Origin: Serratia liquefaciens
Lineage (GTDB): Bacteria > Pseudomonadota > Gammaproteobacteria > Enterobacterales > Enterobacteriaceae
Direction of reading: 5' to 3'
Assembly: GCF_027594825.1 (NCBI RefSeq)
Contig: NZ_CP088930.1
Span: 3,719,019 to 3,783,018, forward strand
DNA: 64,000 nt
Shown here one piece after another: positions 41,896 through 53,975 of the stretch (the stretch's first letter is position 1; the number at the start of each line of letters is the position of its first letter). The notes beneath the pieces were generated by a model, which was not told the origin of the DNA, made no database searches, and was given only the letters and a program-made list of their open reading frames with translations. The position numbers and the translations under genes were made by a program.

Positions 41896-43092
41896 ATGTC
41901 TGCCACCTTCAGGCAAGCCTTTGCAACACGCGCCATCCATCATGGTTACGATCCTCAGCAGTTCCTCGGGGCGCTCAGCCCACCGGTGTTTATGAGTTCG
42001 ACCTTTACCTTCCCGACGGCGGAATATGGCGGTGCCTGTTTTGACGGCAGCGAGACGGGGTATTTTTATTCACGCATCTCCAACCCGACCCTTAACCTGC
42101 TGGAACAGCGGATCGCCAATCTCGAGGGCGGAGAGGCTGCGGTGGCCTTTGCTTCGGGCATGGGCGCGATTACCGCCTGCTGTTGGACGCTGCTCAATCC
42201 GGGGGATGAGCTGATTGTCGATGAAACCATTTACGGCTGCACCTTCAGTTATTTCCATCACGGATTGGCGCGCTACGGTGTGAAAATCACCCACGTCGAC
42301 CTGACCCGACCGGAGCGGCTGGCGGCGGCGATAGGTCCCCGGACCCGCATGGTATATTGCGAAACGCCGGCCAACCCGAATATGCGTTTGGTCGATATTG
42401 CCGCAGTGGCCGAAATCGCTCACCGCCAACAGGCGTTGCTGCTGGTGGATAACACCTATTGCACGCCGTATCTGCAACGGCCGCTGGAACGGGGGGCCGA
42501 TATAGTGGTGCACTCCGCCACCAAATACATCGGGGGGCATGGCGATTTGTTGGCCGGGTTGGTAGTGACGCGTCAGGATTTGGCTCAGGACATCCGCTTG
42601 GTCGGGCTGAAAGACATGAACGGTGCGGTGCTGTCGGCCCAGGATGCCGCATTGCTGCTGCGCGGTTTAAAAACCCTGCCGTTGCGTATGGAACGCCATT
42701 GCGACAACGCCCAGCGTCTGGCGGAAATGCTGGCTCAGCATTCGGCGGTAGAACGTGTCTATTATCCCGGACTGGAGGATTTTCCCCAGTATGAGTTGGC
42801 GCGGCGGCAAATGGCGCGGCCGGGCGGCATGCTGGCATTTGAACTCAAAGGCGGCATGGCGGCGGGCATCCGCTTCCTCAATGCGTTGCGTTTGATCTTG
42901 CGCGCCGTCAGCCTGGGGGATTGCGAATCGCTGGCACAGCATCCCGCCAGCATGACCCACTCGGCCTACAGCCCCGAAGAGCGGCAGCGTCACCATATCA
43001 GCGATGGGCTGATACGCTTGTCCGCCGGCCTGGAAGATCTTGGCGACCTGAAGGCCGATATTCGTCAGGCCTTGGCGCAAAAAGAGCCTTGA
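41896..43092 (+). CDS. megL: Methionine gamma-lyase (PLP-dependent)
   Basis: Cleaves L-methionine to methanethiol, 2-oxobutyrate and ammonia; many homologues also release H2S from homocysteine or cysteine. Of the Cys/Met metabolism PLP family, this sequence fits methionine gamma-lyase best: Y58 and R60 (YSRISNP), Y113 and the MGL-typical cysteine C115 in [13 protein letters not shown]185, and PLP lysine K210 in [12 protein letters not shown]. The C-terminal [19 protein letters not shown] also agrees. 398 residues. It lies 46 bp after the DUF1641-like gene, which puts thiol production and SQR-like oxidation in one transcription unit. Confidence 0.88.
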
Positions 43093-43121: not shown

Positions 43122-44645
43122 TTAGCCTAGCGCAGGGGCAATTTCCGCCAGCGCCCGTTCGTCCTGCAATAGCGCCGCGCTGCTGGCAATGTCGGGCGCC
43201 AACCAGCGATCCTGATGGTAAGGTTCTACCCTTTGGCGCAGCTGTCGCCAGGCGCGCCCGGTACCTTCGCCGAAGCGTTGCTGTTGCAAAAACTCGAAGG
43301 CCTGGGCCGCCAGCAGGTATTCAATCGCCAGGATCTGGTTAACGTTGGCCAACAGCTTATGCAGCCGCAATGCCGCACCGGTCCCCAGACTGAGGTGATC
43401 TTCCTGCAGCGCCGAAGTGACATAGTTATCCACTACGCAAGGCTGTGACAGCTGGCGGTTCTCTGCGCACAGCGATGCCGCCACGTATTGGGCGATCATC
43501 ATGCCGGAATTGACGCCCGGCTCACTGACCAAAAATGGCGGCAAACCGCTGACCAGCGGGTTAATCAGACGATCGATACGCCGTTCGGCGATACCGCCGA
43601 GTTCGGCGATAGCGATCGCCAACACATCGGCGGCCATCGCGACCGATTCGCCGTGCGGATTGGCCTGTGACATGACGCGGAAGTTATCCGGCGTGCCAAG
43701 CAGCAGCGGGTTATCGGTGGTGCCGTTCAGTTCGGTTTCAATCTGTCGTTCGGCATGGATAATTTGATCGCGGCAGGCGCCGTGTACCTGCGGAATAGAG
43801 CGGATGCTCAGCGCATCCTGCGTGCGAATACCTTTGCTGGCGGCAATCACCTCGCTGCCGTTGAGCAGCGCCCGCAGATTTGCGCCCACCCGTTGCATGC
43901 CTGGGTGCGGTTTCAACGCCAGTATTTCCTCGTCGAAGGCGGCAATTTGTCCGCGTAAAGCTTCAAAGCTCATGGCACCCAACACATCTGCCCAACGGGC
44001 CAGTCGCCAAGCGTCGGCAAGCGCCAGGCAGCTCAGCCCGGTCATGCAGGGCGTACCATTGACCAGGCACAGGCCATCTTTGGCCCCGAGCGAGGGCTGC
44101 GCTATGCCTTCTTCCGCCAGCGCCTGAGCGGCGGCGACGACCTGCCCGCGATAGCTGACCTCACCGAGCCCGAGCAGGGCAACGCCGACGTGCGCCATAT
44201 GGGTCAGATAGCCGACCGACCCCTGCGACGGCACCTGGGGCGTGACGCCGCGGTTGAGCAGTGCCAGCAGCGCCTCAACCACCGGCCGTTGGATGCCGGA
44301 TTTGCCGTGGCTGTAGTTCACGATAGCGCAGCAAATAATGGCGCGGGTCTGTTCGTCGCTCAACGGTGTACCTACCCCGCAGGCGTGGCTCATCAAGGTA
44401 TTGCGCGACAGCTGCGCCAACTGTTCGCCGTGCAGTGCCTGGTTACAGAGCGCGCCCAGGCCGGTATTGACGCCGTAGGCGCGTTGTTCGCTGGTGACGA
44501 TTTGCTGGACGATAGCCTGCGCGTTCTCAATACGTGCCCAGGCCGTGTCCGACAGGCTGAGCGGCACCCTATGACGCGCGACCGCCACCACGTCCTGCCA
44601 GCGCAGCGGCTGGCGATCGATCTCTACTGAAGAAGGATAGTGCAT
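43122..44645 (-). CDS. Histidine ammonia-lyase-like protein lacking the MIO-forming Ala-Ser-Gly
   Basis: A 507-residue member of the histidine/phenylalanine ammonia-lyase superfamily. The fold landmarks are kept: YGVNTGLGAL (57-66), SHACGVGT, LVNGTP with N196, Q276, R282 and QEDH with E415. The electrophile site is not: where HutH in this same window reads [15 protein letters not shown], this protein reads GSVGYLTHMAHV (142-153), i.e. an exact three-residue gap at Ala-Ser-Gly. The tyrosine of QDPYSLRC is leucine (L279), and the phenylalanine of GGNFHAEP is proline (P330). It therefore cannot form MIO and is unlikely to be a normal histidase. The ATG at 44645 has GAGGA in front and follows the hutV stop by 10 bases, so it is the last gene of the hut operon. 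It may bind histidine or a related ligand, or have different chemistry. Confidence 0.85.
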   Translation of the reverse strand: MHYPSSVEIDRQPLRWQDVVAVARHRVPLSLSDTAWARIENAQAIVQQIVTSEQRAYGVNTGLGALCNQALHGEQLAQLSRNTLMSHACGVGTPLSDEQTRAIICCAIVNYSHGKSGIQRPVVEALLALLNRGVTPQVPSQGSVGYLTHMAHVGVALLGLGEVSYRGQVVAAAQALAEEGIAQPSLGAKDGLCLVNGTPCMTGLSCLALADAWRLARWADVLGAMSFEALRGQIAAFDEEILALKPHPGMQRVGANLRALLNGSEVIAASKGIRTQDALSIRSIPQVHGACRDQIIHAERQIETELNGTTDNPLLLGTPDNFRVMSQANPHGESVAMAADVLAIAIAELGGIAERRIDRLINPLVSGLPPFLVSEPGVNSGMMIAQYVAASLCAENRQLSQPCVVDNYVTSALQEDHLSLGTGAALRLHKLLANVNQILAIEYLLAAQAFEFLQQQRFGEGTGRAWRQLRQRVEPYHQDRWLAPDIASSAALLQDERALAEIAPALG

Positions 44646-44655
44646 TTGGGGTTCC

Positions 44656-45513
44656 TCAGGCACGGGCCACACTCATCGGACGGGGTTTTTGCACATTTTC
44701 ATCCAGCGCCAGGCGGCGTTGCACGAAGCGGTTAACGTATTCGTCGGCCGGGTTGTTAAGAATGTCCTGCGGCGTGCCGACCTGGATCAGTTTACCGTCC
44801 TTCAGGATCGCGATCCGGTTGCCGATGCGTACCGCCTCATCCAGATCGTGGGTGATAAACACCAGCGTTTTGTGCAGCTCTTTTTGCAGCGCCAGCAGTT
44901 GATCCTGCATCTCGGCGCGAATCAACGGATCCAGTGCGCTGAAGGCTTCGTCCAGCAAAATGATATCGGTATCGGTGGCCAGCGCACGCGCCAGCCCGAC
45001 GCGTTGACGCATGCCGCCGGAGAGTTGATGCGGATAGGATTTCTCATAGCCCTTCAACCCTACGGTGTTGATCCAGTGCAGCGCACGCTCCTGATACACC
45101 TCTTTATTCTCCCCCCGCACTTTCAGGCCATAGCCCACGTTGTCCAGCACCGTTTTGTGCGGCAGCAGGCCAAAGCTCTGAAACACCATGCTGATCTTGT
45201 GGCGACGGAAGTGCTCAAGCTGCTTTTCGTCGTAGCGCAGGATATCTTCACCGTCTACCAGGATCTGGCCGCTGGTGGGATCGATCAGGCGGTTAAAGTG
45301 ACGCACCAAGGTGGATTTTCCCGATCCGGACAGGCCCATGATCACGAAGATCTCACCGGCTTCGATCGACATCGACAGATCGTGCACGCCGATCACGCAG
45401 TCCGTCGCGGCCTGCACTTCCTGCTTGGTTTTTCCTTGTTGGCTCAGCGCCAATGCCGCCGCCGTTTTATGGCCGAAGATCTTGTAGACGTTTTTGATTT
45501 CTATTTTGTTCAT
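44656..45513 (-). CDS. hutV: ABC transporter ATPase, HutV type (quaternary amine/histidine uptake)
   Basis: ATP-binding subunit of an osmoprotectant-class importer. The P-loop GLSGSGKST is at 60-68, the Q-loop in MVFQSFGLLPHKT, the signature LSGGMRQ at 164-170, and Walker B in IILLDEAFSALD. At 285 residues it lacks the C-terminal CBS pair of ProV, the subunit that senses osmolarity. This agrees with a nutrient importer such as Pseudomonas HutV rather than ProU. It starts 5 bp after hutW. Confidence 0.82.
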   Translation of the reverse strand: MNKIEIKNVYKIFGHKTAAALALSQQGKTKQEVQAATDCVIGVHDLSMSIEAGEIFVIMGLSGSGKSTLVRHFNRLIDPTSGQILVDGEDILRYDEKQLEHFRRHKISMVFQSFGLLPHKTVLDNVGYGLKVRGENKEVYQERALHWINTVGLKGYEKSYPHQLSGGMRQRVGLARALATDTDIILLDEAFSALDPLIRAEMQDQLLALQKELHKTLVFITHDLDEAVRIGNRIAILKDGKLIQVGTPQDILNNPADEYVNRFVQRRLALDENVQKPRPMSVARA

Positions 45514-45518
45514 CGGGG

Positions 45519-46364
45519 TTACCTCGCAACGGCGGTGCGGCCGTAAGCCTGAGTGATGCGATCAATGACCACGGCCAGAATGACGATCGCCAGCCCGGCT
45601 TCCAGTCCCAGCCCGACGTTCAGCGTCTGAATGCCCACCAACACGTCTTCGCCCAACCCACGAGCGCCGATCATTGACGCGACCACGACCATCGACAACG
45701 ACATCATGGTGGTCTGGTTGATACCGGCCATGATGCTCGGCAGCGCCAACGGCAACTGGACGCCGAACAGCTTCTGCCAGCGGTTGGCGCCAAAGGCGGT
45801 CACGGACTCCATCACTTCCTTGTCCACCTGGCGGATGCCCAAATCGGTCAGGCGGATCAGCGGTGGCGTGGCGTAGATCACCGTTGCCAGAATGGCCGGC
45901 ACCTTGCCCAGGCCGAACAGCATCAATACCGGGATCAGGTAGACGAAGCTCGGCATGGTTTGCATCACGTCCATCAGCGGCATCATCACCGCCCTTACGC
46001 GATCGCTACGCGCCGCCAATATGCCTTGCGGAATGCCGATAATCACCGCCAGCAGCGTGGCGACCAGTACCAGCGCCAGGGTTTGCATCAATTTGTCCCA
46101 CATCCCGGCGGTACCGACCAGCAGCAACAGGCCGACGATCACCAGGGTTGGCAGCCAACGGCGGGTGGCGTGCCAGGCCAGTAGCCCGACCACGGCCAGC
46201 ATCACCCACCATGGGGTGGCGCGCAGCAGGCTTTCGAGGTGGATCACCGCCCACAGCAGGGTGTCGGAGATCTTGCGGAACATATCGCCATAGTTGGTGA
46301 CCAACACGTCGACCCAGCGGTTGATCCAATCGGCGATGGAAAAGGTAAAGCGTTCTGGAAACAT
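45519..46364 (-). CDS. hutW: ABC transporter permease, HutW type
   Basis: Inner-membrane permease of the ProW family, 281 residues, with about seven hydrophobic segments. The coupling loop region contains ESVTAFGANRWQKLFGVQLP, the expected EAA motif. MGINQTTMMSLSMVV-type sequence after it is conserved in betaine and histidine importers of this class. It lies between the binding-protein and ATPase genes of the same transporter. Confidence 0.83.
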   Translation of the reverse strand: MFPERFTFSIADWINRWVDVLVTNYGDMFRKISDTLLWAVIHLESLLRATPWWVMLAVVGLLAWHATRRWLPTLVIVGLLLLVGTAGMWDKLMQTLALVLVATLLAVIIGIPQGILAARSDRVRAVMMPLMDVMQTMPSFVYLIPVLMLFGLGKVPAILATVIYATPPLIRLTDLGIRQVDKEVMESVTAFGANRWQKLFGVQLPLALPSIMAGINQTTMMSLSMVVVASMIGARGLGEDVLVGIQTLNVGLGLEAGLAIVILAVVIDRITQAYGRTAVAR

Positions 46365-46430: not shown

Positions 46431-47396
46431 TTACAAGGAAGCCTGAATTTTTTTCGCTGCGTCTTCGCTGACCCACTGTTTCCAGATATCCGGGTGCTGC
46501 TTGAAGAACTCCAGCGCCAGCTTCTGGGAGCTGATGCGTTCCTTGCTCATGCGCGCCAGATTCTGGTTAACCAGATCGAGCGGCAGATTCACTTTTGACA
46601 ACACCTGCACCAGCTCAGGTGCCTGCTGGTTAAACACGCTGGAAATGCCGACCTTGATGTGGATGTTCTTGTCCACGCCAGGCTCTTCCAGTTTCACCAG
46701 ATCGAGCTGGCCCATGATCGGGGTAGGGGACCAATAGTAGAAGAGGATAGGTTCGCCGCGGCGGTAGCTGGAAAGAATGGCGGTATCCAGCGCCGGGCCG
46801 GTGCCAGGACGGAAGTTGGTGAACTTGTCGTCCAACCCGAATTTTTTCAGGATCGCACTGTTGTCCAGTTCGCAGGTCCAGCCGGCCGGGCAGTTGTAGA
46901 AGCGGCCTTTGTCCGGCTCTTCCTGATCGCGAAACACCTGCACGTATTTGGCGAGGTCCGGGATGCTTTTCAGGTCCGGTGCCAGCGGTTTCAACTTACG
47001 CTTGGCATTGCCTTCAATCACATAACGCGGCACGTACCAGCCTTCAACCGCGCCGACAATGGGGGCACCGACGCTGACCGCTTTGCCGGCTTTCTCGGCC
47101 TTGTTCCAGACCTCACTGCGGCCGATCCACTCTTCGGCGAAAATCTGAATGTCGTTGGTGCCGACCGCCTGCTCCATGGTGATGGAGTTGCCCGGCAACG
47201 CGTCGGTTTTACAGTCGTAACCCTTTTGCAGTACGTATTGCATCACGTCGGTCAGCAGCATGCCGCTTTCCCAGTTCAGTCCGGCGAACTTGACCGGTTT
47301 GCCGGATTCGCACCAGCCTGCTGCGCGTGCGGAGAGGCTGCCTGTCATCAGCCCCAGCGCGATCAGCGGTATCCATAATTTGTGTCGTGTTTGCAT
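46431..47396 (-). CDS. hutX: ABC transporter substrate-binding protein, HutX type
   Basis: Periplasmic binding protein of the ProX/OpuAC class. A signal peptide ends near SARAA (about residue 25). The mature part has several tryptophans and two cysteine pairs typical of the family (WCESGKPV; CPAGWTCELD). From the ATG at 47396, preceded by GTGGAG, it has 321 residues; an in-frame start at 47522 would remove the signal from the N-terminus. Operon context (hutU, hutH, hutT) suggests histidine, or a histidine derivative, as ligand rather than glycine betaine. Confidence 0.82.
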   Translation of the reverse strand: MQTRHKLWIPLIALGLMTGSLSARAAGWCESGKPVKFAGLNWESGMLLTDVMQYVLQKGYDCKTDALPGNSITMEQAVGTNDIQIFAEEWIGRSEVWNKAEKAGKAVSVGAPIVGAVEGWYVPRYVIEGNAKRKLKPLAPDLKSIPDLAKYVQVFRDQEEPDKGRFYNCPAGWTCELDNSAILKKFGLDDKFTNFRPGTGPALDTAILSSYRRGEPILFYYWSPTPIMGQLDLVKLEEPGVDKNIHIKVGISSVFNQQAPELVQVLSKVNLPLDLVNQNLARMSKERISSQKLALEFFKQHPDIWKQWVSEDAAKKIQASL

Positions 47397-47448
47397 GTTG
47401 ATACTCCACTTTAATGACGAAGAGCCCGGGAACGGCGGGCTCGTGAGA

Positions 47449-48840
47449 CTAATACTGTGGTGAGGACGTGACGGGTGAACCCCCGCCTTTTTTACGCACC
47501 CACAACCAGTAAGCCAGGGCAAGGAAGGCTACCCACACCAACCCCACGTACAGGGCGATGCGGCTGTCTTCGAAGTAACCGAGCAGGCCGATGACGAACA
47601 GCATGAATACCGTCGCCAGTGCCGGTGCAACCGGCCACCAGGGCACCGGGAAGCTCAGTTTGCTGACCTCTTGCGGCGTCAGCGTGCGGCGCATGGCGAT
47701 CTGCGACAGCAGGATCATCAGCCATACCCAGACGGTGGCGAAGGTGGCGATGGAGGCGATGATCATAAACACCTGTTTTGGGATCAGGTAATTGAGCACC
47801 ACCCCCAACAGCAGGGCAATGGACATCACCAGCACCGTCATCCAGGGCACGCCGTTGCCGGTCAGGCGGGTGAAGCTTTTGGGCGCCTGACCTTCCTGCG
47901 CCATGCCGTACATCATGCGGCCGGCGCCGAAAATGTCGCTGTTGATGGCGGAAATGGCGGCGGTGATCACCACCACATTCAGCACGTTGGCGGCGGAACT
48001 GATCCCCAGATTGCTGAAGATCTCAACAAACGGGCTGCCGTTTTGGCCGATGCTGTTCCAGGGATAAATTGCCATCAGCACCAGCAGCGTCAGCACGTAG
48101 AACAACAGAATGCGAATCGGTACCGCATTGATCGCTTTCGGCAGCACCTTCGCGGGGTCTTTTGCCTCGCTGGCGGTAATGCCGATGATCTCAATGCCGC
48201 CGAAGGCGAACATCACCACCGCCAGCGAAGCGACCACGCCGCCGATGCCGTTAGGCATAAAGCCGCCGTGTTGCCACAGGTTGCTGAGGCCGGTAGCGTG
48301 CTGGGTCTGACCGAAGCCAAACAGCATGACCGCCGCCCCGCCGATGATCATCGCGACAATCGCCGCCACCTTGATCAACGACAGCCAGAACTCCATTTCG
48401 CCGAACACTTTCACGCTGCACAGGTTGAGCGCACCGATAAACATGATGATGCTGAGCACCCACACCCATTGGGCGACGTCCGGGAACCACAGCCCCATAT
48501 AGATGCCGAAGGCGGTGACGTCTGCCAGGGCAACAATCACCATTTCGAAGGTATAGGTCCAGCCGGTGAGGAAACCGGCCAAGGGGCCAAGGTAGTGACT
48601 GGCATAATGACCGAAGGAGCCGGAGACCGGCTGATGCACCGCCATTTCACCCAGCGCGCGCATCACCATAAAGACCGCTGCACCGCCGACCAGATATGCC
48701 AGCAGCACCGCAGGGCCGGCCAACTGGATGGCTCCGGCGGAGCCGTAGAACAGACCGGTGCCGATGGCTGAGCCGAGCGCCATAAAGCGGATATGCCGCG
48801 CGTTTAGTCCGCGTCTGAGTTGTGTTGTTTCGTTATGCAT
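47449..48840 (-). CDS. hutT: APC-family amino acid permease, probable histidine permease HutT
   Basis: Secondary transporter of the amino acid-polyamine-organocation superfamily with 12 predicted helices; 463 residues from the ATG at 48840. [20 protein letters not shown] at the N-terminus and the rest of the chain are close to E. coli ProY and to HutT of pseudomonads. The operon position next to hutH favours histidine (or urocanate) as substrate, but proline cannot be excluded from sequence alone. Confidence 0.8.
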
Positions 48841-48887
48841 GTTGCTTCCCGTCGAGTTTTTACGGCAGAACAGGCACGCGCTATCCG

Positions 48888-48910
48888 CACCGGGTGGAAC
48901 GCACCCGGTG
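48888..48910 (-). other. Intercistronic hairpin between hutH and hutT
   Basis: Stem CACCGGGTG/CACCCGGTG with a five-base loop in the 100-bp gap. No T run follows on the minus strand, so it may protect the hutUH message or lower expression of the transport genes. Confidence 0.45.
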
Positions 48911-48940
48911 GGACAGAACAAACTGCGTGGTAGGTTTTAT

Positions 48941-50476
48941 TTATGCCTGGCTAGGCAGCAATGCCGCAGGCATCAGCGAGGTCAGATGACCGGTTGCCAA
49001 CAGCAGGCTGGCAGCTTCAATGTCGGGGGCGAAGAAACGGTCCTTGTCGTAGTAACTGACCTGCTCGCGCAGCACGCGGCGTGCCTGCTCCAGACTTTCG
49101 GTGGTTTTCAGGCCCTTGCGCAAATCCAGCCCCTGGCAGGCCGCCAGCCATTCGACGGCCAGGATACCGCGCACGTTATCCGCCATTTCCCACAGGCGGC
49201 GTCCTGCGGCCGGTGCCATGGAAACATGGTCTTCCTGGTTGGCGGAGGTCGGGATGCTGTCGACGCTGGCCGGGTGCGCCAGCGCTTTGTTTTCGCTGGT
49301 CAGCGCCGCGGCGGTGACCTGGGCAATCATAAAGCCGGAGTTGACGCCGCCGTTGTCCACCAGGAAAGGCGGCAGTTGCGACATGTGCTTATCCATCATC
49401 AGCGAGATGCGACGCTCGGACAGCGAGCCGATTTCGGCAAATGCCAGCGCCAGATTGTCGGCGGCCATCGCGACCGGTTCGGCGTGGAAGTTGCCGCCGG
49501 ACAGGACATCGCCCTGTTCTGCGAACACCAATGGGTTGTCGGACACCGCATTGGCTTCGACCTCCAGCACTTCGCTGGCCTGGCGGATCTGCGTCAGGCA
49601 GGCACCCATCACCTGCGGTTGGCAGCGCAGGGAGTAGGGGTCTTGTACCTTTTCACAGTTGCGATGCGAGTCGGACACTTCGCTGCGTTCGCCCAACAGG
49701 TGGCGGTAAGCGGCGGCGGCGTCGATCTGGCCACGTTGGCCGCGTACCGCATGAATACGTGCGTCAAACGGGCTGCGAGAGCCCAGAGCGGCTTCCACCG
49801 TCAGGCAGCCGGTGACCGTGGCTGCGGCGTACAGGTCTTCTGCGTCAAACAGGCCGCGCAGCGCGAAGGCGGCGGAAACCTGGGTGCCGTTCAGCAGCGC
49901 CAGGCCTTCTTTGGCCGCCAGCGTTAGCGGCTTCAGGCCTGCTTTGGCCAGCGCTTCGGTGGCGGGCAGCCATTCGCCTTGATAGCGGGCCTTGCCTTCG
50001 CCCAGCAGCACCAGACTCATGTGTGCCAGCGGTGCCAGGTCGCCGGAGGCGCCCACGGAGCCCTTCAGCGGGATGTGCGGATAGACTTCGGCGTTGACCA
50101 AGGCCATCAGTGCCTGGATCACTTCCAGACGGATGCCGGAGAAACCGCGCGACAGGCTGTTGATCTTCAACACCATAATCAGGCGCACCAGATTGTCGTC
50201 GGTCGGTGCGCCAACGCCGGCGGCATGTGACAACACAATCGATCGCTGCAGATTTTCCAAATCTTCAGGTGCGATACGGGTGGATGCCAGCAGGCCGAAG
50301 CCGGTATTGATGCCGTAGGTGGTGCGGTTTTCTTCGACAATGCGTTCAACACAGGCCACGCTCTGCTGGATTGCGGCGTAGGCATTGTCGTCCAACGTCA
50401 GGGTCACCGGGTGTTGATAAACTTCGCGTAGCTGAGCCAGTGTCAGTTGGCCTGGGCGGATAGTCAGCGCTTTCAT
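48941..50476 (-). CDS. hutH: Histidine ammonia-lyase (histidase)
   Basis: Eliminates ammonia from L-histidine to give trans-urocanate, the first step of histidine breakdown. The Ala-Ser-Gly that cyclises to the MIO cofactor is at 143-145 in [15 protein letters not shown]. The active-site Tyr (YGINTGFG), His (SHAAGVG), Asn (LLNGTQ), the QDPYSLRC block, the Phe of GGNFHAEP and the Glu of NQEDH are all present. 511 residues. Its ATG overlaps the hutU stop (ATGA), so hutU and hutH are translationally coupled. Confidence 0.97.
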
Positions 50477-52164
50477 GCTTTGTCTCCTTGAGTCGCGGCC
50501 ACCATCGGCAGGTTCAAACCTTGCTCACGGGCACATTCAATCGCAATGTCGTAGCCGGCATCGGCGTGACGCATCACGCCAGTGGCTGGGTCATTGTGCA
50601 ACACGCGGGCGATACGTTCGGCGGCTTCATCGGTGCCGTCACAAACGATAACCATACCGGAATGCTGCGAGAAGCCCATGCCGACGCCACCGCCGTGGTG
50701 CAGGGAAACCCAGGTCGCACCGCTGGCGGTATTGAGCAGGGCGTTAAGCAGCGGCCAGTCGGAAACGGCGTCCGAACCGTCCTGCATGGATTCGGTTTCG
50801 CGGTTCGGGCTGGCGACCGAGCCGGAGTCCAAGTGGTCGCGGCCGATAACGATCGGGGCGGACAGTTCGCCACTGCGCACCATTTCGTTGAATGCCAGGC
50901 CCAGCTTGGCGCGCTGGCCCAGGCCGACCCAACAGATACGTGCCGGCAGGCCCTGGAAGCTGATGCGTTCGCGCGCCATATCCAGCCAGCGGTGCAGATG
51001 CTCGTCATCTGGGATCAGCTCTTTAACCATAGCGTCGGTTTTGTAGATGTCTTGCGGATCGCCGGACAGTGCAGCCCAGCGGAACGGGCCGATGCCGCGA
51101 CAGAACAGCGGACGGATATAGGCAGGCACAAAGCCTGGGAAATCGAAGGCGTTGTTGACGCCCATTTCTTTCGCCATCTGACGAATGTTGTTGCCGTAGT
51201 CGAAGGTAGGTACGCCCATCTTCTGGAAGGCCAGCATGGCTTCGACGTGTTCTGCCATCGACTGCTTGGCGGCGGTCACCACCTGCGCAGGTTCGGTCTG
51301 TGCACGTTCGCGGTACTCTTCCCAGCTCCAGCCTTTTGGCAGATAGCCGTTCAGCGGGTCGTGGGCGCTGGTCTGGTCGGTGACCATGTCCGGGCGCACG
51401 CCGCGGCGCACCAGTTCCGGCAGAATGTCTGCCGCATTGCCGCACAGGGCGATGGAGATGGCTTTGCCTTCGGCGGTGTATTTCTTGATGCGAGCCAGCG
51501 CGTCGTCCAGATCTGTCGCTTGTTCATCGACATAACGGGTCTTCAGACGGAAATCGATACGGCTTTGTTGGCATTCGATGTTCAGTGAACAGGCGCCTGC
51601 CAGCGTGGCGGCCAGCGGTTGCGCGCCGCCCATGCCGCCCAAACCGGCGGTCAGCACCCAGCGGCCCTGCAGGCTGCCGTCGTAATGCTGGCGGCCCGCT
51701 TCCACGAAGGTCTCGTAGGTTCCCTGGACGATGCCCTGGCTGCCGATGTAGATCCAGCTGCCGGCGGTCATTTGGCCATACATGGCCAGACCTTTGGCGT
51801 CCAGTTCGTTAAAGTGTTCCCAGGTGGCCCAATGTGGCACCAGGTTAGAGTTGGCAATCAGCACCCGTGGCGCGTTGCTGTGGGTTTTGAATACCCCGAC
51901 CGGTTTGCCGGACTGAACCAGCAGCGTTTCGTCTTCTTCCAACGTTTTCAGGGTGGCGACAATTTTGTCGTAGCAGTCCCAGTCACGCGCGGCGCGGCCG
52001 ATACCGCCGTAGACCACCAGCTCATGCGGGTTTTCCGCCACTTCCGGATCGAGGTTGTTCATCAGCATGCGCAACGGCGCTTCGGTCAGCCAGCTTTTTG
52101 CATTTAATTTTGTGCCGCGTGGCGCGCGTACATCGACATTGCGAACTTTGTTATTTGCAGTCAC
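50473..52164 (-). CDS. hutU: Urocanate hydratase
   Basis: NAD-dependent hydration of urocanate to imidazolonepropionate. The NAD+ acts as an electrophile bound in the [15 protein letters not shown] and [10 protein letters not shown] regions; the C-terminal part carries [19 protein letters not shown]. The best start is GTG at 52164 (V/M-TANNK), with GAGGA in front, giving 563 residues; in-frame ATGs upstream add unrelated sequence. It heads the hut operon. Imidazolonepropionase (hutI), hutG and the repressor hutC are not in this window. Confidence 0.95.
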
Positions 52165-52250
52165 AGCATTTTCCTCAAACAGTATCGGTGCAGATCCCAT
52201 GGTGCGGTGGGGTGAATCACCACGCCATAACAATGCGTAGGGTTTATTAA

Positions 52251-52279
52251 CATATACTTGTATGTACAAGCATATGCAA
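52251..52279 (-). promoter_or_regulatory. Predicted hut promoter with HutC-type operator
   Basis: The core CTTGTATGTACAAG is a perfect inverted repeat about a 2-bp centre, and the symmetry extends to 11 of 12 positions on each side (52251-52276). It fits GntR/HutC operators of enteric hut genes. On the minus strand TTGCAT and TATATG flank it with a 17-bp spacer, so a bound repressor would sit between -35 and -10. It lies 87 bp before the hutU start. Confidence 0.65.
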
Positions 52280-52542
52280 CACCGACCAGTGGGCGGCCAA
52301 AAAGGCATAAGAGAAAGTTATTCTTGTTTTAAATCAATGGCATGATTTCTATTTTGACGGCTGGGCCATTAGGCTCGCACTGAAGAACAGTGAGCTATTC
52401 AACAAAAATGAATTAAAAATGGGTCATTTTTGAGCGGCGAATCACAATAAATTTACATACCCATTACAAGTTAGGGCGAGCGATAAAAAAGTCCTATCGC
52501 TGGAGGGGGGGAAGCCGTTGACAGAGTGCTGTGTTGTTTTAT

Positions 52543-52628: not shown

Positions 52629-53975
52629 TTATACGGGTTTGTCAGCTGGTTGCAGCAGCGCTCTTCGGGTCATTTTGAATACCGTGGCGATGGCGGCGAT
52701 CAACGCCGGCACGCACAGGAACATCAAAATGCTCTGCACTTCCCACTGCATGGCCAGCAACTGTGCCCCCATCATGGTTCCCGCCACGCCACCAAAACGG
52801 CCGATGCCCTGCATCCAGGCTATGCCGGTTGCACGGCTGTGGGTCGGGTAGAAGGTGGCCGCCAGCGTTTGCAGACCGGACTGCGCACCGTTCATGGTGA
52901 TGCCCATCAGGAAGATAAAGGTGCCCAGCAGCACGATATGGCTGTCCTCGGTCGCCATCGCCACGATGAGCAGGGCGGTGATCACAAAGCCGCTCGACAC
53001 CACTTTATGGGCGTTCCAGCGGTCCATCAGCCAGCCGGCCACCAGAATGCCAAGCGTGCCGCCGAAGGTGAACAGCGAGGTCAAAATGGCCGACTGCTCC
53101 AGCTGATAGCCCAGCCCCTGCATCAGGATCGGCATCCAGCTCAGCAGCACGTAATAAATCACCAGGCCCATAAAATAGGTCAGCCACAGCATCAGCGTAC
53201 CGGTCAGATAAGGGCGGGTGAACAACAGGCCGACGCTGGTTTTGGACTGTGCCAATTTCTCTTCATACAGATAAAAGCGTGTCACCTGAGCGAGATCCTG
53301 GCTGACGAAACGCTGGGCAATGCGTTTGATTTTTGCCGCCTCCTTGCCGCGGTTTACCATGTATTTCACCGATTCCGGCAGGAACAGGATCAACAAGACC
53401 GTCAGCGCCAACGGAGCGATCGCGCCCAGCAGCAGTACGCTGTGCCAGCCGTAGGCCGGGATCAGCCACGACGAAATCGCGCCACCGCCGGCCGCCCCGA
53501 GCGGGAAACCGCAGTACATGGTGTTAATCGCCAACGAACGACAGCGCTTTGGCGCATATTCGGAAATCAGCGTGATAGCGTTCGGCATCGCGGCCCCCAG
53601 CCCCAGGCCGGTGAGGAAGCGCCACAGCGTCAGGCTATTGAGCGAACCGGCGTAGGCGGTCGCCAGGCTCGACAGGCCGAAGAACAGGCACGAAAACACC
53701 AGTACCCGCTTACGGCCGATGCGGTCGGAAATCGGTCCGGCAACCAGGGCGCCAAGGGACAGGCCCAGCAGCGCGGCGCTCAGCACCGGGCCCAGATCCT
53801 GTTTCACAATGCCCCAGTCTTTGGCGACCGAAGGGGCGATATACCCCATGGCCGCCGTGTCAAAGCCATCAATGGCCAGGATCAGGAATCCCAAAATGAT
53901 CAAAGTCCAGTGAAACAGCGAGAATTTGCTGTCGTCGATGGCCTGCTGAATGTTCAACTCGGTGGAATGAGCCAT
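52629..53975 (-). CDS. MFS transporter, aromatic acid:H+ symporter (AAHS) family
   Basis: A 12-helix major facilitator of 448 residues. DGFDTAAMGYIAPSVAKDW in helix 1 and GPISDRIGRKRVL in loop 2-3 are typical of the aromatic acid:proton symporters (PcaK, MhpT, BenK types). The exact substrate cannot be read from the sequence. No aromatic catabolic genes accompany it. It lies upstream of hutU on the same strand, separated by 464 bp and a palindromic repeat, and a TGTATATACA palindrome lies upstream. A role in uptake of urocanate or another imidazole acid is a speculative alternative. Confidence 0.8.
   Translation of the reverse strand: MAHSTELNIQQAIDDSKFSLFHWTLIILGFLILAIDGFDTAAMGYIAPSVAKDWGIVKQDLGPVLSAALLGLSLGALVAGPISDRIGRKRVLVFSCLFFGLSSLATAYAGSLNSLTLWRFLTGLGLGAAMPNAITLISEYAPKRCRSLAINTMYCGFPLGAAGGGAISSWLIPAYGWHSVLLLGAIAPLALTVLLILFLPESVKYMVNRGKEAAKIKRIAQRFVSQDLAQVTRFYLYEEKLAQSKTSVGLLFTRPYLTGTLMLWLTYFMGLVIYYVLLSWMPILMQGLGYQLEQSAILTSLFTFGGTLGILVAGWLMDRWNAHKVVSSGFVITALLIVAMATEDSHIVLLGTFIFLMGITMNGAQSGLQTLAATFYPTHSRATGIAWMQGIGRFGGVAGTMMGAQLLAMQWEVQSILMFLCVPALIAAIATVFKMTRRALLQPADKPV

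Follow-up and report, generated by a model that had tools for sequence, protein, structure and literature searches.

The stretch of DNA analysed here (the window) comprises 64,000 nucleotides of Serratia liquefaciens contig NZ_CP088930.1 and corresponds to C1:3719019-3783018 of a 5.35 Mb genome. It contains a hut operon for histidine utilisation, and the last gene of this operon, at 43122..44645 on the minus strand (window positions), encodes a 507-residue histidase homologue without the tripeptide that gives rise to the 4-methylideneimidazole-5-one (MIO) electrophile. The run on the minus strand reads hutU-hutH-hutT-hutX-hutW-hutV-lyase, so that the lyase gene indeed stands at the end of the operon, as the original prediction had placed it. 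Its ATG is at 44645 and its stop codon ends at 43122. The predicted spacing of 10 bases behind the transporter ATPase gene is exact (44646..44655, separating the lyase ATG from the stop codon of hutV, read from the sequence), and a GAGGA box at 44653-44657 shares two bases with that stop codon (44656-44658).

The other members of the run are all on the minus strand. HutU (open reading frame (ORF) 50473..52308, with homology starting at about 52134) is a plain urocanate hydratase: it scores 1027 bits with the hutU model, whereas with the thiourocanate hydratase model it reaches 700 bits, under the cut-off of 930. HutH (48941..50476) is a canonical MIO histidase with its Ala-Ser-Gly encoded at 50042-50050. 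HutT (ORF 47449..48921) is an APC-family amino-acid permease, for which the best model is ProY, below its cut-off. HutX (ORF 46431..47522) is a substrate-binding protein with a conserved cage of four tryptophans; since its ORF overlaps that of hutT, the true start lies inside the ORF. HutW (45519..46364), the permease of the HutXWV importer, matches TIGR03416 best, below the cut-off of that model, and HutV (44656..45513) is the ATPase of a ProV/ChoV-class (quaternary amine) ABC importer (TIGR01186, 362.3 bits, cut-off 326.6).

Alignment of the window lyase with HutH from the same operon (40% identity) agrees with each of the residue changes described in the original prediction. Ala-Ser-Gly is deleted exactly and in frame, giving the loop GSVGY---LTHMAHV; the codons of G142-S143-V144-G145-Y146, at the site of the absent tripeptide, were placed at 44208..44222 on the minus strand, as computed from the ATG at 44645 and the alignments. 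The tyrosine of QDPYSLRC, Tyr280 in histidase numbering, is Leu (QDALSIR), and the phenylalanine of GGNFHAEP, Phe329, is Pro (QANPHGES). Retained are Tyr53, His83, Asn195, Gln277, Arg283, Met382 and Glu414, including the four residues predicted to be kept, which in the numbering of the protein itself are N196, Q276, R282 and E415 (N195, Q277, R283 and E414, respectively). Homology to the HAL/PAL fold extends over the full length. In the proposed comparison with a histidase structure, the predicted monomer had a whole-fold template modelling (TM) score of 0.90 to histidase 1b8f, with a predicted local distance difference test (pLDDT) value below 50 at residues 143-146, 271-276 and 406-416. Thus, compared with HutH (EC 4.3.1.3; 1b8f, 7tqr), the window lyase shares the whole fold and H83, R283, N195, M382 and E414, but has no Ala-Ser-Gly and hence no MIO, differs by Y280L and F329P and belongs to a separate clade. 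Of the curated HutH models, NF006871 gives 551.9 bits (cut-off 524) and TIGR01225 gives 539.0, just below its cut-off of 539.15. Simple duplication of HutH was rejected by this alignment of loop and pocket residues.

The same features recur in related proteins. Among 283 HAL-family ORFs in the fetched loci, 151 have the Tyr form of the deletion, 120 have ASGD and 12 have another loop; this count is no survey, as most of the loci were picked for their resemblance to the window lyase gene, yet it argues that the deletion is no sequencing accident. Removal of near-copies left a tree set of 90 sequences (89 plus ergothionase), which were typed by their loop, the window lyase belonging to type A; loop counts within a type are therefore true by definition, whereas residue 280 is independent of the typing. 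Y53, H83, N195, Q277, R283 and E414 are present in all 41 type-A sequences and M382 in 40 of them. Residue 280 is Leu in 41/41 type-A and Tyr in 34/34 ASGD sequences, and position 329, which is Phe in all 34 ASGD sequences, carries Pro (27 sequences) or Ala (14) in type A. Met and Glu at positions 382 and 414 mark the histidine kind of enzyme, Lys and Gln the aromatic kind; three of the ASGD sequences are of the aromatic kind, with K382 and Q414. Because type A keeps H83, R283, N195, E414 and Met382, unlike the K382/Q414 kind, its pocket is of the histidine type as judged from the alignment. In other words, the groups that hold the imidazole and the carboxylate are kept, while the electrophile and two adjoining bulky side chains are gone.

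A search for relatives with the predicted GSVG-(Y/x)LTHMAH form, together with a map of their neighbourhoods, revealed a widespread and conserved clade that usually stands behind an ABC importer. The suspicion that a family exists, including a second hutH beside hutXWV in Pseudomonas, was borne out: hutX, hutW and hutV precede the lyase gene in 79/80 named loci, the exception (L089; L numbers denote loci, G numbers genomes) being a contig of 3.2 kb. HutH is present in 77/80 of these named stretches and HutU in 73/80. By synteny, and by comparison with Pseudomonas loci other than that of SBW25, the window gene is Pseudomonas HutH1, the second histidase behind hutXWV, and no difference between the two was found. 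In the compared Pseudomonas loci the lyases are 75-78% identical to that of the window, and the window gene itself is 99% identical to a gene on another Serratia liquefaciens contig (L058), which was omitted from the selection test as near-identical. In 60 random Pseudomonas pairs, the ratio of nonsynonymous to synonymous substitution rates (dN/dS) was about 0.11 for type A versus 0.067 for HutH, the lyase dN being about twice that of HutH. The lyase frame is open in 80/80 loci (the window and 79 named ones), and sequencing error as the cause of the deletion was rejected on this ground. The contrary outcome envisaged with the original prediction, that the close relatives are randomly decaying pseudogenes, is not borne out by the open frames and the dN/dS value. 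Apparently decayed HAL-family copies do occur elsewhere: of the four HAL-family pieces in a low-completeness genome, three contain in-frame stops (G028:C1:724925-726378 and 1538370-1539829).

In histidase, the MIO electrophile turns the amino group of the substrate into a leaving group. Since a quaternary trimethylammonium group already is a leaving group, MIO would be dispensable for a betaine substrate. One such substrate could be hercynine (N-alpha-trimethyl-histidine, histidine betaine), which fungi and bacteria produce. We consider it reasonably probable that the window protein is a hercynine trimethylamine-lyase yielding urocanate and trimethylamine, although substrate, products and mechanism are all inferred. 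According to this proposal, HutXWV would import the betaine, the HutH1-type protein would catalyse 1,2-elimination of trimethylamine from hercynine to give urocanate, and HutU with the rest of the hut pathway would finish the degradation. Loss of MIO together with Y280L and F329P/A would provide space for the three methyl groups; a base would take the beta-proton, and trimethylamine would depart without covalent activation. Tyr53 and Glu414 are the residues proposed as acid and base in the HAL fold. The original prediction of a retained pocket is supported as regards a histidine-type pocket lacking MIO. The predicted absence of ammonia-lyase chemistry is probably correct if taken literally, but an elimination in which trimethylamine departs is likely to have been kept.

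The proposal builds on the one solved MIO-less relative, the ergothionase of T. denticola (6s7j), described as lacking MIO in PMC13405746. It removes trimethylamine from ergothioneine, and the same reaction type is predicted for the window lyase acting on hercynine. Both proteins have the MIO-less HAL fold, Leu in place of Y280, Y53, H83, R283 and E414. However, they are only 27% identical and differ in the deletion itself, ergothionase reading SSIGE-GD where the window lyase has GSVGY---L. In addition, the M382, N195 and P329 of the window lyase correspond to Gly, Ser and a retained Phe in ergothionase. In both the full tree and a careful tree of 60/90 sequences (without type E and with the type-A and MIO sequences thinned at random), type A and ergothionase fall on separate branches. 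As the two loop forms represent different deletions, loss of MIO probably occurred on at least two occasions, an inference from trees that retain the loop columns and have no outside root.

Three observations point to hercynine, the betaine without sulfur, as the substrate: M382 is kept, a plain HutU is linked to the lyase gene and ergothioneine has a cluster of its own elsewhere in the Serratia genome. This cluster (L186, G000:C1:5152000-5171500) encodes a lyase with the loop GSVGEGD, a thiourocanate hydratase (1015 bits, cut-off 930) located about 1.4 Mb from the window and ErtD (669 bits, cut-off 600). Hence, the ergothionase-like gene of this genome is linked to thiourocanate hydratase, whereas the window lyase is linked to plain HutU, and ergothioneine as the main substrate of the window lyase was rejected for these reasons. 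The same cluster also contains genes for an MHS transporter and a Zn-hydrolase-like protein. The N-terminus of its lyase looks by eye like a signal peptide, and such an apparent export signal is odd.

By profile search, HutXWV belongs to the ProXWV/choline (quaternary amine) class, and the closest structure to HutX is 7yle, which we take to be RnDmpX because 8/8 pocket residues given in PMC10030565 occur at the published numbers in 7yle. The known counterparts are the DmpXWV, TmoXWV and ProXWV importers for quaternary amines and sulfoniums, and the HutX cage, W/W/W/W/Y/E, matches that of 7yle: W35, W84, W152, W202, Y200 and E113 are present in 87/87 HutX proteins (identity of at least 45%; 85 distinct sequences). 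HutX differs from RnDmpX, whose ligand is dimethylsulfoniopropionate, by low overall identity and by T64S and A153T, each found in 86 of the 87. At the level of sequence, the cage places HutX in a class whose members hold quaternary amines or sulfoniums, without specifying the ligand.

Several observations weigh against hercynine. Two lower-identity binding proteins used as controls, with no lyase gene in the stretch (L139, L140), both retain all four Trp as well as the Tyr, with E113 replaced by Gln, so that the cage is a mark of the importer class and not of the ligand. In SBW25, HutXWV itself is described as contributing to histidine uptake. The ergothioneine importer EgtU, from another branch of the quaternary-amine importers, has a Tyr/Phe cage and holds the carboxylate unlike Trp-cage proteins, and hercynine gave it only a small thermal shift (PMC9732360). 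Moreover, F329 is kept in ergothionase and lost in type A, so that the two pockets differ. Finally, importer class is not constant. Directly upstream of the 41 type-A genes are 18 quaternary-amine importers, 17 polar-amino-acid importers and, in six cases, none, with at least two switches of class on the type-A tree; the polar-amino-acid class thus makes up 17/35 of the importer-linked cases. For both polar-class binding proteins searched, the nearest matches are octopine-binding (5ore) and nopaline-binding proteins. The alpha-amino site of the polar-class proteins still has acidic residues nearby, which makes an ordinary ammonium, secondary-amine or opine-like ligand possible. We looked for a betaine cage in these proteins and found no evidence of one, which neither supports nor excludes hercynine. 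At the same time, the place of the lyase gene behind two unrelated importer classes suggests that the enzyme probably acts on an imported compound. The type-A genes that lack an immediately preceding importer gene include those of Aminobacter (L138 8004-9497) and Aureimonas (L054); the Aureimonas plasmid gave no other HAL-family match, and its lyase gene belongs to a hut operon.

The polar-class importers bear on an unlikely alternative, namely that the MIO-less lyase makes urocanate from another histidine derivative, such as di- or monomethyl-histidine or an opine-like N-carboxyalkyl-histidine, or is a broad betaine lyase that also takes ergothioneine. The share of polar-amino-acid importers and the octopine/nopaline affinities speak for it, as does a SolA-like N-methyl-amino-acid oxidase gene following type A in L051 (Rhizobium) and L182. 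However, the partner of type A in Serratia and Pseudomonas is a quaternary-amine-class binding protein with the four cage Trp, secondary amines would on chemical grounds leave poorly without an electrophile, and for ergothioneine the genome already has its separate cluster. The original prediction offered a regulator of the transporter or operon, a subunit mixing with HutH tetramers or an enzyme with other chemistry; the last is favoured here. A non-catalytic binder of histidine or urocanate, regulating the importer or mixing in HutH tetramers, is improbable. It would account for the concurrent loss of MIO, Y280 and F329 and for the adjoining ATPase gene, and a HAL homologue at 40-42% identity accompanies type A in 10/10 genomes of a family-level sample (ASGD was read in 7/10). 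Yet Y53 and E414 are invariant, two unrelated importer classes are in use and G399 has type A without canonical HutH. Three HAL-family genes were found in that genome: the type-A gene, which lies in the hut operon, a type-C gene and a gene of the aromatic kind. The lack of a canonical HutH among them suggests that the lyase gene does not need HutH.

The case of G399 can also be read as replacement of HutH by type A, that is, as a true histidase working without MIO or with another electrophile. The Aureimonas plasmid, with a hut operon and no other HAL match, and the histidine-type pocket would agree with this, but a canonical-type HutH occurs in the same stretch in 77/80 named loci, and we regard such an activity as slightly less probable still than a mere binding role. 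A decaying hutH duplicate would explain the lost key residues of the parent enzyme and the doubled dN. We consider it practically refuted by the open frames, by the selection values and by a pocket conserved across classes.

The hercynine lyase could be placed within a wider scheme, which we put forward more tentatively. HutXWV-HutH1 might be a dedicated hercynine utilisation module across Pseudomonadota and one branch of a larger radiation of HAL-fold enzymes that shed MIO by at least two routes and turned into trimethylamine-lyases, in which the substrate can be read from MIO and residue 382. Presence or absence of the MIO triad would indicate ammonia or trimethylamine as the leaving group, and Met at residue 382 a bare imidazole, with Gly, Ile or Gln indicating a sulfur-bearing one; there is one exception (L206). 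The ergothioneine-utilisation cluster on plasmid pAt of Agrobacterium tumefaciens Ach5 (L136) combines a type-A lyase and a HutXWV-like importer with ErtD and an S-methyl-thiourocanate hydratase, the last two above curated cut-offs. This lyase has the clade, deletion and importer kind in common with the window lyase, but the two are 44% identical, and it is the sole type-A sequence with residue 382 changed (M382Q); Gly occupies this position in four ergothionase-type sequences.

To test whether MIO loss marks every ergothioneine cluster, we compared 18 loci with an ErtD-like gene (7/7 from one search and 11 of 43 plasmid records), although several distant ErtD hits (about 40%) are perhaps not ergothioneine clusters. 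A lyase without intact ASG is present in 7/18 (L136, L186, L193, L194, L195, L197 and L198, the last reading ASD). One locus (L207) has only a weak lyase match of 24%, and in 7/18 there is no lyase in the stretch (L199, L200, L201, L202, L204, L208, L209). Against the scheme and the hercynine proposal alike, an MIO-type lyase is found in 3/18 (L203, L205, L206), so that MIO loss as the mark of every ergothioneine cluster failed in part. Residue 382 in these MIO-type lyases is Gly, Ile or Met, and it is still Met in L206, which is also contrary to the scheme, so that the proposed rule for this residue applies to two of the three. The MIO homologues with Gly or Ile at residue 382 (L203 10750-12363, L205 6368-7900) are perhaps ammonia-lyases for thio- or S-methylthio-histidine.

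Genes of this kind are annotated as histidine ammonia-lyase in many Pseudomonas, Serratia, Burkholderia and rhizobial genomes, and this name (NF006871) is probably wrong for the whole type-A clade. MIO-less trimethylamine-lyases of the HAL fold are a kind already known; the type-A clade and the proposed substrate appear to be new. Among the open-access papers listed, which do not cover most subscription journals, none was found that names a hercynine lyase or assigns hutH1 a function. In P. fluorescens SBW25, hutH1 is reported as not required for growth on histidine. If the enzyme is a hercynine lyase, this finding would be accounted for, as would a betaine-class importer in a hut operon, and a second histidase hitherto without a role would gain one. 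Soil and plant bacteria would then have a route to hercynine as a fungal and actinobacterial metabolite, trimethylamine would have a possible extra source, and a post-translational electrophile would prove dispensable once the leaving group changes.

Other loop types also occur. Type B (GSVGYLIATAH, three sequences; L043, L044 and L137) lies beside an OsmF-like importer (90 bits, far below the model cut-off of 400), and hut genes adjoin it in L044 and L137. In L137, a Klebsiella pneumoniae plasmid (7959-9491), the gene is part of a hut cluster whose HutU is plain (1019 bits), and the stretch shown contains no MIO HutH; L137 is the one record read of 226 Klebsiella plasmid records matching the HAL-family query. 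Type C (GSxGxAD; L046, L047, L173, L190, L191 and L192), with H83R in 5/6, has OsmF-related genes at about 30-50% identity beside it in L047, L173 and L192. A long-branch HAL homologue (L196 9455-11023, minus strand, G159), distinct from types A-D, has the loop GSVGYLGPEGH with MIO deleted, keeps Y280 and F329 and is located behind a polar-amino-acid importer. In the window itself, a PcaK-like MFS transporter gene (52629-53975, minus strand; under the cut-off of its model) lies upstream of hutU. Beyond the lyase gene and convergent with it is a methionine gamma-lyase gene (41896-43092, plus strand), which does not appear to be tied to type A, as a close copy (86-99%) stands beside type A in only 3 of 95 loci compared (L035, L058, L059).
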